From the NCBI GenBank assembly GCA_003576945.1, contig QEVC01000009.1:1-32250 (forward strand): a DNA stretch of 32,250 nucleotides, in the 5' to 3' direction. The DNA is from Candidatus Microgenomates bacterium (GTDB taxonomy: Bacteria; Patescibacteriota; Microgenomatia; UBA1400; UBA12108). Position 1 is the stretch's first letter. Each line of letters opens with the position of its first letter. Positions 17,185 to 23,461 of this stretch are shown piece by piece. The notes beneath the pieces are model-generated. The model worked only from the letters and a program-made list of their open reading frames with translations. It searched no databases and was not told the DNA's origin. A program made the position numbers and the translations under genes.

Positions 17185-17240
17185 CAAGTAGATCATAATA
17201 TATCAATTGCAAAATAGTTATTGTGCATTAACTATGTAGC

Positions 17241-17249: not shown

Positions 17250-17259
17250 AAGTACCCGT

Positions 17260-18012
17260 ATGGCACTACATATCTCTATCAATGCGGAACCAGTAACAAA
17301 TATCTTCGGTGTATCGATCACCAACTCTCTAGCTACCTCTGCAATTATTACAATACTCCTCCTTGTCAGTGTCTATCTAGGTACCCGTAATCTCAAACTC
17401 AGCGGCAAGTTAAGTAGACTCCAAATGTTTTTTGAAGTTATGATCGAGGGACTCTATGGCATCGTCGAATCTATCGCAGGCACTACCAAGGCTCGTCTAT
17501 TCTTCCCTATGGTTATGAGTTTCTTTATCTTTATCGTTCCCTCCAACTGGTCCGGCCTCCTCCCTGGGGCTGGTTCTGTCGGCTTTACGGCCCTCCTACA
17601 TGGCCAAGAGACCTTTATCCCGATCCTCCGCGCCCCAACCGCCGACATCAATACCGCCCTCGCGCTCGCCTTGATCACCATGGTCACTGTCCAATACTAC
17701 GGATTTAAGTTCTTAGGCTTCGGTTACCTCAAAAAATTCTTTAACTTTACTAATCCCATCAACGGCTTTGTTGGTATCCTCGAGCTCGTTTCCGAGTTTA
17801 GCAAAATCATCAGCTTTACTTTTCGTCTCTTTGGCAATATTTTTGCTGGCGAAGTCCTAATCTCAGTCATGGCCTTCTTAATCCCCCTCGGTCTCCCGAT
17901 CCCGTTCTACGCGCTCGAAGTGTTTGTTGGCCTGATCCAGGGTCTAGTTTTCCTCATGCTCTCGACCGTCTTTATGAACACTGCGACTCACGCCCACGAG
18001 GCCGAACATTAG
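17260..18012 (+). CDS. atpB: ATP synthase Fo subunit a
   Basis: 250-residue membrane subunit forming the proton half-channels next to the c-ring. Several membrane segments are visible from about residue 22 onward. The essential Arg is in SFTFRLFGNIFAGE near 185-198, and the C-terminal helices are intact. The ATG at 17260 is preferred over the TTG at 17221 because the extra residues do not fit the family and the -10 box lies between the two. First gene of the atp operon; no atpI precedes it. The C terminus is His-rich (ATHAHEAEH). Confidence 0.95.
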   Translation: MALHISINAEPVTNIFGVSITNSLATSAIITILLLVSVYLGTRNLKLSGKLSRLQMFFEVMIEGLYGIVESIAGTTKARLFFPMVMSFFIFIVPSNWSGLLPGAGSVGFTALLHGQETFIPILRAPTADINTALALALITMVTVQYYGFKFLGFGYLKKFFNFTNPINGFVGILELVSEFSKIISFTFRLFGNIFAGEVLISVMAFLIPLGLPIPFYALEVFVGLIQGLVFLMLSTVFMNTATHAHEAEH

Positions 18013-18045: not shown

Positions 18046-18354
18046 ATGTCAGACGTTGCCACTGCTACACAAGCTGTTCAAGCTGCAGGTGAAGTCGCCC
18101 AACAGGTTGCGACACTCGCCCAAAATTCTAATATGATGGTCGACAGCAATATCGCTGTAGGTCTCGCCATGGGTCTAGGTGCGATCGGTCCTGGTATCGG
18201 TATCGGTCTAGTTGGGCTAGGTGCCATGCAGGCCATCGGTCGTAACCCCGATGCCGCCAGCAAAATTCAGACCAACATGATCCTTGGCTTTGCCTTTGCC
18301 GAAGCTGTCGCTATCTACGCTCTAGTTATTGCTCTTATTCTTAAGTTTGTTTAA
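18046..18354 (+). CDS. atpE: ATP synthase Fo subunit c
   Basis: 102-residue c-ring subunit. Two membrane helices (about 36-60 and 76-101) flank the polar loop AIGRNPDA. The ion-binding Glu is in GFAFAEAVAIYALV. It is followed by Ala, and the first helix has GPGIGIGLVG without the Gln typical of sodium-binding rings, so proton coupling is likely (inference). An N-terminal extension of about 33 mostly polar residues (MSDVATATQAVQAAGEV...) makes it longer than the usual 70-90. A clear AGGAG site lies 7 nt before the ATG. Confidence 0.95.
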   Translation: MSDVATATQAVQAAGEVAQQVATLAQNSNMMVDSNIAVGLAMGLGAIGPGIGIGLVGLGAMQAIGRNPDAASKIQTNMILGFAFAEAVAIYALVIALILKFV

Positions 18355-18366
18355 GGAGCCAATAAT

Positions 18367-18837
18367 ATGGAAATCAATTTTTATCAAATCCTCTTCCAAA
18401 TCCTCAATTTTGGGGTAGTCATGTACCTTCTTAACAAGGTTCTTTATAAACCTGTTATGAAAATGCTCGACGATCGCGCCAAAAAAATCAATGAGGGCAT
18501 GAGTCAAGCAGAAAAGAATCTCAAAGCTGGTGAAGAAATCGAAAAGACCAAAAAAGCCGAAGTAAGCAAAGCCCGTAAAGAGGCTAGCGCTATTATTACT
18601 GCCGCCGAAGTCGACGCCAAAAAGAAGGCTGATGAGATTGTTAAAAAAGCTCATGAAAAAGCTAAAGAAGAAGTCGCTAGCATAATCAAGGCCGCAGAAA
18701 AAGAAATAGAAAATGCCAAAGCTAAACTTCAAAAAGAATCAGCCACTATTGCCGCTGCTATGGCTAAAAAAGCTCTCGAAGACGCACTGACTACCAAGGA
18801 AATTGAAGCTATAACCAAAAAATTACTAGCTTTATAA
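18367..18837 (+). CDS. atpF: ATP synthase Fo subunit b
   Basis: 156-residue stator subunit. One membrane helix at about 6-24 is followed by a long Lys/Glu/Ala-rich coiled coil that forms the peripheral stalk. The length equals that of ordinary b subunits, and no extra domain is fused at the C terminus, which matters because the next gene encodes only part of delta. AAGGAG at 18353-18358 overlaps the atpE stop and lies 8 nt before the ATG. Confidence 0.94.
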   Translation: MEINFYQILFQILNFGVVMYLLNKVLYKPVMKMLDDRAKKINEGMSQAEKNLKAGEEIEKTKKAEVSKARKEASAIITAAEVDAKKKADEIVKKAHEKAKEEVASIIKAAEKEIENAKAKLQKESATIAAAMAKKALEDALTTKEIEAITKKLLAL

Positions 18838-18838
18838 A
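18833..18838 (+). promoter_or_regulatory. Possible internal -10 box before atpH
   Basis: TATAAA overlaps the atpF stop codon. The predicted start near 18845 coincides with the first leader heptad at 18846. No good -35 is seen. It could supply extra transcription inside the operon. Confidence 0.3.
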
Positions 18839-18845
18839 CTTTATA

Positions 18846-18866
18846 ACTAGGTACTAATAACTAAAT
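18846..18866 (+). repeat. Heptad leader repeat before atpH
   Basis: Units ACTAGGT, ACTAATA and ACTAAAT in register, then T and the ATG at 18868. No Shine-Dalgarno site is present, although atpE, atpF and atpA around it each have one. Confidence 0.75.
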
Positions 18867-18867
18867 T

Positions 18868-19080
18868 ATGAACTACACAATTACCAGCGCGACCAAACTA
18901 AGTAGCAGTAATTTAAAAACTGCCCAGGATGTCGCTAAAGCTAAACTTGGTGCCAGTGGGACCCCCAAACTAGAGGTAGATTCTAGCCTTATTGCTGGAG
19001 TTCGTATCCTCTATGGCAGCTCATTGCTTGATCTCTCGCTTGCTGCTCGCATAGATAGTATCAAAAACTCAATTAGCTAA
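18868..19080 (+). CDS. atpH: ATP synthase F1 subunit delta, C-terminal domain only
   Basis: 70 residues, against about 180 for a full delta subunit. The sequence VDSSLIAGVRILYGSSLLDLSLAARIDSI (37-65) matches the delta C-terminal signature (D..LIGGV.I..G....D.S...RL..L), and the part before it fits the helix that normally precedes it. The N-terminal six-helix domain that caps the alpha subunits is missing. It is not fused to atpF or atpA, and the 30 bases upstream cannot hold it. The gene sits in the normal delta position between b and alpha, which supports the call despite its size. It is probably functional rather than broken, as it has its own leader and no frameshift remnant is seen. Confidence 0.85.
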   Translation: MNYTITSATKLSSSNLKTAQDVAKAKLGASGTPKLEVDSSLIAGVRILYGSSLLDLSLAARIDSIKNSIS

Positions 19081-19092
19081 AGGAACAGGTAT

Positions 19093-20610
19093 ATGGCAGA
19101 TGCAACGCTACTTTCAAAAATTAACTCCTGGAGTGAGTCTGTCAAACCAGTGAGTATTGGTACCATTACCAAAATTGGGGATGGTGTAGCGCACCTTTCT
19201 GGCTTAAATGACGCCATGATGAGTGAACTCATCGAATTTCCTGGCGGCACCTATGGCCTAGCCCTCTCCCTTCACACCGAAAGCGTTGGTGTCGTCTTGC
19301 TCGGTGAATATAGTCATCTCAAAGAGGGAATGACTGCGACTGCCACCGGTAAAATCTTAAGTATCCCCGTAGGTCCCAACTTCCTCGGCCGTGTCGTTAA
19401 CCCCCTTGGCGAGGCATTAGATGGTCAGGCTAATCCAGAAGGCGCAGCAATCTATCCTATCGAAAATATCGCCCCTGGTGTTATTACCCGCCAGCACGTT
19501 AGTCAGCCTCTCCAGACTGGTATTATCGCAATCGACGCTATGATCCCAGTTGGTCGTGGCCAGCGTGAGCTTATCATTGGTGACCGTGGTGTTGGTAAAA
19601 GTAGTATTGCTATAACCACTATTATCAATCAGGCCAAAGAAGGCATTAAGTGTATCTACGTCACGATCGGTCAAAAAAGAAGTTTTGTAGCTCAACTCGT
19701 TAATACTCTCGAGCAATTTGGGGCTATGAAATACACAACTGTCGTGGCTGCTACCGCTAGCGACCCGGCCTCTATGCAATATCTAGCTCCTTACGCAGGC
19801 GCCAGTCTCGGTGAATACTACGCCAAAAATGGCCAAGATGCGCTCATTATCTACGATGATCTTAGTAAGCACGCTTGGGCTTACCGCGAAATCTCGCTCC
19901 TTTTGCGTCGACCTTCTGGCCGCGAAGCCTATCCGGGAGACGTTTTCTATCTCCATTCCCGCCTATTAGAGCGCGCCTGTCGCCTAAACAAAGAATATGG
20001 GGGTGGTAGTTTGACCGCTCTTCCAATTATCGAAACCCAAGCTGGCGACGTCTCCGCCTACATCCCAACCAACGTCATTAGTATTACCGATGGACAGATC
20101 TATTTAGAAACTGACATGTTTAACTCAGGCTTTAAGCCCGCCGTTAACGTCGGCTTATCAGTCTCTCGTGTCGGTGGTGATGCCCAAATTAAAGCGATGA
20201 AAAAAGTGGCAGGACGTCTCCGCTTAGATCTCGCGCAGTATCGAGCGCTCGCCGCTTTCTCTCAATTTGCCTCAGATCTCGACGTCAAAACCAAAGCTCA
20301 ACTAGACAAAGGCTCGCGCGTTTCCGAGATCCTCAAACAGGGTTGGGATGAGCCACTACCAGTCGCGCAGCAAGTTATGCTCATCTGGGCAGTTACCGAA
20401 GGCTATGCTGATAAAGTAGAACTCAAAAACATGATTGAGTGGAAAAATGTACTCCTGAGCTACATAACCACCAATCAAGATGGAATCGCTTTTTCAGACA
20501 AGCTTAAAAAGGAAGGCGCTCTCTCCGATGAGCTCTTATCCACAATGAAGATGCTTGTAACTAATGTAAATGCCTCATGTGCTCATCTTATGACGAGCGA
20601 AAGTGAGTAA
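19093..20610 (+). CDS. atpA: ATP synthase F1 subunit alpha
   Basis: 505-residue non-catalytic nucleotide-binding subunit. P-loop GDRGVGKS is at 163-170; the usual form is GDRQTGKT. The arginine-finger segment [17 protein letters not shown] and the C-terminal helical domain are present. The N-terminal tail before [10 protein letters not shown] is about 22 residues, slightly shorter than in E. coli, and this is the part that normally binds the delta N domain, which is absent here. An AAAGGA site precedes the start by 8 nt. Confidence 0.97.
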
Positions 20611-20612
20611 TA

Positions 20613-21461
20613 ATGGCTAGCCTTATCGGGATTAGACGTCGTATTAAGTCAGCTAAGAACATTGCTCAGATCACCAAGGCTATGGAAATGGTCTCTGCCA
20701 GTAAAATGAAAAAAGCCCAAGATGCCGCGCTCGCGACTCGACCCTTTACCCTCAAGCTTAAAGAAATGATGGATAAAGTCAGCGGGGGACTAAAGGGGAG
20801 TACCCACCCACTCACCCTAAACTCGAAGAATCCTAATATCTTAGTTATCCTAATTTCCACCAACAAGGGACTCTGTGGTGCCTTAAACGTCAATCTTTAT
20901 CGTTCCCTCCTCGAATTTGCAGGTAATCACGTAGGTTCTAAAATTATGATCGCCACAGTTGGCAAAAAAGCCAAATACATAACACCAACTGGCAATACTG
21001 AGCTAAGTGCAAAGTTTAATAATCTTGGCGAGACTGTCACCTTTGCCGAGACCAGGAGTGTTAGTGCCTACGCGATAGAGCAATATAGTCAAGGGGTGGT
21101 TGGTAAAGTCTATTTGGCTTATCCACGCTTCATCAGTACTCTCCAAAATGACATTACTTTTACCAAGATCTTGCCATTTAGCACCGACTCCACTGACTCG
21201 GTGAGTAACTATACAATTGAACCAAGTTCTACTGAGCTCTTAGATACCCTCCTTCCTTATCAAATCGAAATGTCCGTATACCAAACCATCCTCGAAGCTC
21301 GGGCTACCGAACACAGTGCCCGCATGGTCGCGATGAAGAATGCATCTGATAACGCCAAAGAGTTAATCGGCAACTTGACGCTTGACTACAACCAAGCCCG
21401 TCAGAGTTCCGTTACCAACGAACTCTTAGATGTAACAACCGCTCGCATGGCGATAGAATAA
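20613..21461 (+). CDS. atpG: ATP synthase F1 subunit gamma
   Basis: 282-residue rotor shaft. N-terminal helix MASLIGIRRRIKSAKNIAQITKAMEMVSASKM and C-terminal helix TEHSARMVAMKNASDNAKELIGNLTLDYNQARQSSVTNELLDV are the conserved coiled-coil parts. The central globular region is ordinary (STNKGLCGALN). It begins 2 nt after atpA, so it is probably translated by coupling. Confidence 0.96.
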   Translation: MASLIGIRRRIKSAKNIAQITKAMEMVSASKMKKAQDAALATRPFTLKLKEMMDKVSGGLKGSTHPLTLNSKNPNILVILISTNKGLCGALNVNLYRSLLEFAGNHVGSKIMIATVGKKAKYITPTGNTELSAKFNNLGETVTFAETRSVSAYAIEQYSQGVVGKVYLAYPRFISTLQNDITFTKILPFSTDSTDSVSNYTIEPSSTELLDTLLPYQIEMSVYQTILEARATEHSARMVAMKNASDNAKELIGNLTLDYNQARQSSVTNELLDVTTARMAIE

Positions 21462-21464
21462 TAA

Positions 21465-22913
<1,449 letters not shown>

Positions 22914-22919
22914 CAAAAT

Positions 22920-22950
22920 ATTAGGTACTCGGTACTAAGTACTTATGACT
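22920..22950 (+). repeat. Heptad leader repeat running into the atpC start
   Basis: Units ATTAGGT (22920-22926), ACTCGGT, ACTAAGT and ACTTATG (22941-22947), the last containing the ATG, followed by ACT. No Shine-Dalgarno site is present. Confidence 0.78.
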
Positions 22951-23379
22951 AATAAATTAACGCTCGACATTGTTACACAAGAGAGACGGCTCTTAACAGT
23001 CGAAGTAGGTAGTGTCACAGCTCAGACTGCCGAAGGAGAGATTACCATTCTCCCCAATCACGTCCCGCTCTTAACTAGATTAACTGAAGGCCTCCTGCGA
23101 TACAAAGATAGTACTGGGAGCGAAGAGACGGTAGTTATCTTTGGCGGCTTCCTCGAAGTCGATGCCCTTGGCAACATAAATATCTTGGCAGACAGTGCCG
23201 TTCGTGCCGGCGATCTCGACGAAGCCAAGATCAAAGCAGCAGAGGCCGAAGCCAAAGCAACTCTAGCCGATAAAACTCGCGAACTTGAGTTTGCCGAGGC
23301 CGAGAGTTCACTGCGAAGAGCCTACCTTGAGCTTAAAGCGCTTAACAAAGGTAGTAAGCCACGCCACAGCCAGAACTAG
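22945..23379 (+). CDS. atpC: ATP synthase F1 subunit epsilon
   Basis: 144-residue subunit with both usual parts: an N-terminal beta-sandwich (TAEGEITILPNHVPLLTRLTEG near 29-50; FGGFLEVD) and a C-terminal helical pair rich in Ala/Glu/Lys that can inhibit ATP hydrolysis. Last gene of the operon. The second codon is ACT, part of the leader repeat. Spacing of 31 nt from atpD is larger than elsewhere in the operon. Confidence 0.94.
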   Translation: MTNKLTLDIVTQERRLLTVEVGSVTAQTAEGEITILPNHVPLLTRLTEGLLRYKDSTGSEETVVIFGGFLEVDALGNINILADSAVRAGDLDEAKIKAAEAEAKATLADKTRELEFAEAESSLRRAYLELKALNKGSKPRHSQN

Positions 23380-23430: not shown

Positions 23431-23461
23431 ACTAGGTGCTTACTACTCGGTACTTATGACT
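23431..23461 (+). repeat. Heptad leader repeat running into the ruvC start
   Basis: Units ACTAGGT, GCTTACT, ACTCGGT and ACTTATG (23452-23458), the last containing the ATG, then ACT. With the promoter at 23392-23420 the 5' UTR would be almost entirely this repeat. Confidence 0.78.

Follow-up and report, generated by a model that had tools for sequence, protein, structure and literature searches.

A predicted delta subunit consisting of the C-terminal domain in the ATP synthase operon of a Microgenomates bacterium

In the ordinary FoF1 of Bacillus PS3, the C domain of the delta subunit binds the b dimer and contacts the N-terminus of one alpha subunit, and the N domain, seated in the central concavity, engages the N-termini of the other two alpha subunits (PMC12229609). 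What joins the stalk to the head when the delta gene encodes only 70 residues? The question was raised by 32,250 nucleotides of DNA from a Candidatus Microgenomates bacterium (GCA_003576945.1, contig QEVC01000009.1), referred to as the window throughout. The host genome (Microgenomates, Patescibacteria) measures 825 kb and is 98% complete. One F-type ATP synthase operon was found in the window in the order a-c-b-delta-alpha-gamma-beta-epsilon, with none of its eight subunit genes missing or disrupted:

17257 to 18012, + strand: atpB, subunit a (PF00119); the open reading frame opens at 17221 and the start is uncertain
18046 to 18354, + strand: atpE, subunit c, 102 aa, a single hairpin with an N-terminal extension (PF00137)
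18367 to 18837, + strand: atpF, subunit b, 156 aa, of normal length and without an extra domain, the expected partner of the delta C domain (PF00430)
18838 to 18867, + strand: spacer of 30 bases from the b stop to the delta start, too small for an N domain, with a GTACT-type repeat inside and no clear Shine-Dalgarno site
18868 to 19080, + strand: atpH, free-standing delta C-terminal domain, 70 aa, without the N domain (open reading frame, Pfam OSCP match, predicted fold and dN/dS)
19093 to 20610, + strand: atpA, subunit alpha, 505 aa, with an N-terminal tail of 22 aa (TIGR00962, 732.7 bits)
20613 to 21461, + strand: atpG, subunit gamma, 282 aa (TIGR01146)
21513 to 22913, + strand: atpD, subunit beta; the open reading frame opens at 21471 and the start is uncertain
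22945 to 23379, + strand: atpC, subunit epsilon, 144 aa (PF02823)

The c, b and alpha genes are preceded by AGGAG/GGAG/AAGGA-type sites, and no clear Shine-Dalgarno site was seen at 18843-18867 ahead of delta. Seven-base GTACTNN repeats were observed at 18848-18864, 22922-22952, 6854, 23447 and 26960, several of them right ahead of start codons (delta, epsilon and a gene at 23456). With TAGGTACTNNNNACTAA as the pattern, 10 matches were obtained when 0.73 were expected; GTACTNNGTACTNNGTACT occurred at 20 places in the whole genome, and the backwards control at 0.

Residues 3-68 of the window delta aligned with positions 105-171 of the 172-position Pfam OSCP profile (PF00213; E 2.5e-10), and the score of 41.1 bits was above the curated cut-off of 22.3 bits. 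The gene also occupies the place expected of a member of this family, with b before it and alpha after it in an F-type operon. When compared with TIGR01145, the equivalog for full-length delta, the protein reached 28.2 bits and fell below the cut-off of 57.5, with a match limited to positions 106-171 of 172. As read from the profile alignment, the Pfam match is the C domain exactly and nothing more, which bears out the sequence-only reading of a delta reduced to its C-terminal domain with the N domain absent. Ordinary bacterial delta and mitochondrial OSCP (PF00213, TIGR01145) share this C domain and the gene position; however, of their N domain, about 105 residues long, the window protein retains nothing. 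The last segment of the mycobacterial b-delta fusion (NF009961) matched the window delta weakly. That protein is a long fusion which keeps the delta N domain, an arrangement different from that in the window.

An assembly error, a missed frameshift, a wrong start or a decaying pseudogene could in principle produce so short a gene, and the weak ribosome-binding signal ahead of the delta ATG is a point in favour of such an artefact. However, L062, a record labelled Candidatus Woesebacteria, was the closest relative identified, with an alpha 93% identical to that of the window, and it also has a 70-aa delta gene, separated from b by a spacer of 6 bases. Since the gap in the window is 30 bases and the N domain has about 105 residues, an N domain hidden upstream is impossible, and the frameshift that the sequence-only reading had named in advance as its refutation was not found. 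The two deltas were 74% identical in amino acids with a dN/dS of approximately 0.08, comparable to that of b (0.06) and alpha (0.04) between the same genomes, with dS near saturation in these comparisons. The same length and place in independent genomes, the lack of upstream room and the dN/dS together argue that the short delta is real, leaving the artefact with a negligible probability; on these sequence comparisons, the gene is a working one under purifying selection, neither debris nor a sequencing error.

The missing domain might instead come from another subunit or from a separately encoded protein that has diverged strongly, the sequence-only reading having suggested that the domain could be encoded elsewhere. 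A genome-wide search with the Pfam OSCP profile gave a single place in the genome. The match there could be extended to profile positions 7-171; this extension crosses three stop codons into the coiled coil of b and was rejected as an N domain. Fusion of the N domain to b or alpha was also ruled out; as had been read from the sequence, neither carries an extra domain, and both hold the usual domains only. We searched the host genome with a profile of N domains from Chloroflexota and Patescibacteria deltas (alignment A1, seven rows), and no match was obtained at E values up to 10. The same profile recovered the deltas of G250, G254 and G054, all three represented in A1, as well as that of G077, which is not part of A1 (E 1.4e-5). 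Its sensitivity is limited, however: it is small, and it overlooked G104, a true full-length delta. A separate ordinary N domain elsewhere in the genome is unlikely on this evidence, and the supply of that domain by a diverged protein or another subunit is improbable, although slightly favoured by the missed G104.

The OSCP profile gave a match in 35 of the 53 relatives searched. Several families of the same order apparently have no F-type enzyme and gave only weak matches to the alpha profile; similar weak matches also occur elsewhere in genomes with a full operon. Among the 36 distinct Microgenomates operons that were read, none had a full-length delta, and no relative of the same order was found with one in this operon; the presence of such a relative was listed in the sequence-only reading among the results that could overturn it. 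A free C domain of 67-81 aa was present in 16 operons. Two operons had tandem C domains without the N domain (128 and 143 aa in L156/L020 and L165/L023, with two OSCP stretches each; L156:1078-1464, 128 aa, and L023:1486-1917, 143 aa; genomes G025 and G051). In two operons of family f9, of the same order, the C domain was joined to the N-terminus of alpha (L152:1321-2952, genome G024; L154:1336-2979, genome G013); no separate delta gene was present, and the gap between b and alpha was -8 and 1. By inspection only, the C domain in f9 appears to pass straight into the alpha barrel, and its last helix and the separate alpha tail helix look shortened, merged or lost. The remaining 16 operons kept a short N-terminal stretch: three deltas were intermediate (96-103 aa) and 13 were of 112-119 aa, in which the Pfam match begins near position 57-65, so that the end of the N domain is retained. 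One of these 13, L086, was counted from the frame read; it was taken at first to have no delta, and this was rejected when a delta of the 112-aa kind was found in another frame. The longer form occurs even in the window's own family, where L064 and L065 retain a delta of 112-115 aa.

Outside Microgenomates, the delta of Patescibacteria was usually 125-138 aa long, with a minority of 171-182 aa, and that of the Chloroflexota and Bacillota outgroups was about 174-188 aa. When deltas of 125-138 aa (G119, G221) were compared with the N-domain profile, the first 19-22 and the last 37 positions matched and the middle was absent. Other deltas of this length beyond Microgenomates (e.g., L036, L042) likewise seem to lack the middle of the N domain and to keep both ends. 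Three more Patescibacteria families had b, then a delta of 71-80 aa, then alpha. Judged from these lengths, delta forms a graded series from about 180 to 125-138, 112-119 and 67-81 aa, with the window at its end point. In a tree of 123 alpha rows, Microgenomates formed one branch together with one long-branch Patescibacteria row (SH-aLRT 97), and the C-domain-only state, whether free, tandem or fused, required at least five state changes. As traced on this tree, loss of the N domain is recurrent within the lineage and a lineage-wide trait. The sequence-only reading had overlooked this trait, the graded series, the tandem and alpha-fused versions, and the limit to one stalk that has been reported for the lost half.

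Of the 119 Bacillota genomes searched, 102 gave an OSCP match, nearly all of them to a full-length delta, and no free-standing C-domain-only delta of 67-81 aa was found among the matches listed. The C domain lay inside a frame of 600-660 aa in six genomes; five of these frames were read, and all were fusions of the C domain with alpha directly after b. Short open reading frames of 137-166 aa in G361 and G443 were set apart in this count as a different case.

Several further observations were made during this survey. Some Microgenomates have a second F-type operon that is divergent and encodes a full-length delta (about 196-200 aa); it was present in L014 and L024 (genomes G006 and G019), and OSCP matches resembling those of the second operon were seen in G010 (C32), G021 (C12) and G029 (C62). 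In the c subunit of this divergent operon, the c hairpin is preceded by at least 200 extra N-terminal residues that gave no Pfam match. A contig titled Thermoplasmata archaeon (L067, QMSR01000070.1) carries an atp operon of the Microgenomates type, closest to L066, and is probably misbinned. A 6-kb stretch of a Bacillota genome (L176, G361:C7:40500-46500) holds three open reading frames of 111-160 aa with a delta-like C-domain match in each; matches to b, c, a and alpha were not found in it.

Delta C domains without an N domain have precedents. In the engineered FoF1 of Bacillus PS3 (Ueno et al. 2025, PMC12229609; PDB 9jc1), residues 2-104 of delta were deleted and residues 105-178 were fused to alpha. 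The resulting enzyme had up to three stalks and three a subunits, with an H+/ATP ratio of 5.8, i.e., doubled; cryo-EM showed that the delta C domain alone, covalently fused, holds the stalks, and the authors concluded that the N domain limits the number of stalks to one (PMC12229609). The covalent fusion was used because the designers doubted that a truncated delta would bind stably. The window delta is cut at the same place (OSCP positions 105-171), and the N domain is absent in both. However, the C domain is fused to alpha in the engineered enzyme, where several stalks were proven, and is encoded by a separate gene in the window; fusion to alpha was found in L152 and L154. Natural fusions of this kind had already been pointed out in Acidaminococcus fermentans (PMC12229609). 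Like the window protein, these fusions (A. fermentans and the six of 119 Bacillota) keep the C domain and lack the N domain; unlike it, they carry the C domain at the head of an alpha of about 600-650 aa, without a separate delta gene between b and alpha.

Another precedent is the b subunit of N-ATPases (TIGR03321), in which b is joined to a delta-like C domain without the N domain. When the window b and delta were read as one chain, residues 1-236 aligned with positions 1-245 of 246 of this model at 73.7 bits; apart, b and delta scored 56.7 and 12.9 bits. By this profile comparison, N-ATPase b comes closest, among natural precedents, to a delta C domain that lacks the N domain. A published survey describes N-ATPase delta as absent or fused with b, and the gene order as beta-epsilon-X-X-a-c-(b delta)-alpha-gamma, with two extra genes (PMC11738941). 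The window differs in its gene order and in its separate b and delta. Its alpha reached 591.7 bits with the alternate-type model TIGR03324, below the cut-off of 750.5, and 732.7 bits with the ordinary F-type model TIGR00962, above the cut-off of 484.45. Membership of the N-ATPases was rejected on the gene order, the separate b and delta, and these alpha scores.

We conclude, with a probability of roughly 0.8, that the window delta is a genuine, selected subunit, stripped of its entire N domain and acting as a bare adaptor. The sequence-only reading went too far in requiring some other attachment of the stator: in known enzymes, contacts with the b dimer and with one alpha N-terminus are already made by the C domain (PMC12229609), and half of the normal attachment, used alone, is therefore the likeliest arrangement. 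The C domain alone most likely joins the b2 stalk to alpha. As the C domain does in the ordinary enzyme, it would hold the b dimer at the dimer's C-terminal helices and would rest on the N-terminal region of alpha. We infer both that the load falls on the C domain alone and which alpha surface this domain contacts; in the f9 enzymes at least, the fusion places the C domain next to the alpha tail. The second contact, made by an N domain on the threefold axis that grips the other alpha tails, would be gone, and the axis would be free, so that one, two or three adaptors with their stalks could fit on each head.

The tail of the window alpha ahead of the first conserved glycine is 22 residues long and retains its helix-forming stretch; it is slightly short, as had been noticed from the sequence, in that full-length-delta operons had tails of 26-35 residues (median 28). 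C-domain-only operons had tails of 21-36 residues (median 25.5). The tail helix was less amphipathic in C-domain-only operons, with a median hydrophobic moment of 0.46 compared with about 0.6; the rank test gave P = 0.0005 against full-length and 125-138 aa operons pooled, with relatedness ignored. As far as sequence comparison goes, this pattern fits the loss of one partner with some use kept. The lower moment counts against the bare adaptor, as does the covalent fusion to which the designers of the engineered enzyme resorted.

The genes for b, delta and alpha share a reading frame, which allowed residues 92-156 of b, delta and residues 1-96 of alpha to be folded as one chain, with the stops read as glycine. 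Joint alignment A2 misplaced fragments, and A3 was used instead. The model had a pLDDT of 86.6 and a pTM of 0.68, its pose being partly imposed by the 5-residue linker. The predicted delta fold was beta-alpha-beta-beta-beta-alpha, with pLDDT mostly above 90. Among solved structures, the predicted b-delta-alpha arrangement was closest to the delta-alpha fusion chains of the engineered PS3 enzyme (9jc1 I, K and J; 167 columns, rmsd 3.3 to 3.7 Å). When the relative L151 was modelled without b and with a linker of about 18 residues, both domains folded well, their relative placement was of low confidence (pTM 0.42), and the rmsd to 9jc1 was about 21-23 Å over both parts; the pose of the first model was not reproduced. 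Modelling thus shows a predicted delta fold that is intact and compatible with the canonical pose, compatibility not implying that the pose is adopted.

How many such adaptors a head carries can be read in two ways. In one, which we hold to have about an even chance, the enzyme keeps a single stalk with a weakened clamp: a domain that was not essential would have been trimmed in ordinary genome reduction, with a single C domain sufficient for each head, perhaps because the enzyme works mainly as an ATP hydrolase under low load. The streamlined genome, the graded shortening of delta through the phylum and the weaker alpha helix are consistent with this. So are the results for respiratory-chain markers: cytochrome oxidase and complex I, as well as H+-pyrophosphatase, were searched for in the host genome and none was found, which suggests that the enzyme probably works in hydrolysis or at a low gradient. 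However, the C domain is under purifying selection, the remaining subunits are not reduced, and tandem duplication of the C domain and its fusion to alpha are unlike simple decay.

In the other, every alpha could be served by a separate delta C domain, b dimer and a subunit, so that the natural enzyme would have two or three stalks and a raised H+/ATP ratio. We regard this as possible but less likely than not. The engineered deletion and fusion that gave up to three stalks left the fragment that the window encodes in free form; f9 has the fusion naturally, with one C domain per alpha, and the tandem deltas of G025 and G051 provide two per chain. A fermentative setting of low force is plausible given the same marker results, and more ions per ATP would be expected to help at a low gradient. 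However, the vacated sites may stay empty, gene reduction by itself accounts for a smaller subunit, and the many relatives that retain a short N-terminal stretch (112-119 aa) suggest that part of the N domain is useful.

No description of a short free delta in CPR, Patescibacteria or Microgenomates was found in the open-licence literature, in which deltas made of the C domain only, standing free and spread across a bacterial group, appear to be unreported. A single stalk has been treated as a fixed feature of F-type enzymes, and the delta N domain has been argued to enforce it (PMC12229609). With the N domain lost repeatedly and the C domain duplicated or fused, the question of natural multi-stalk enzymes now has named genomes, and this lineage is a natural place to seek ATP synthases with several stalks. 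The finding also bears on how fermentative, genome-reduced bacteria keep up their proton gradient.
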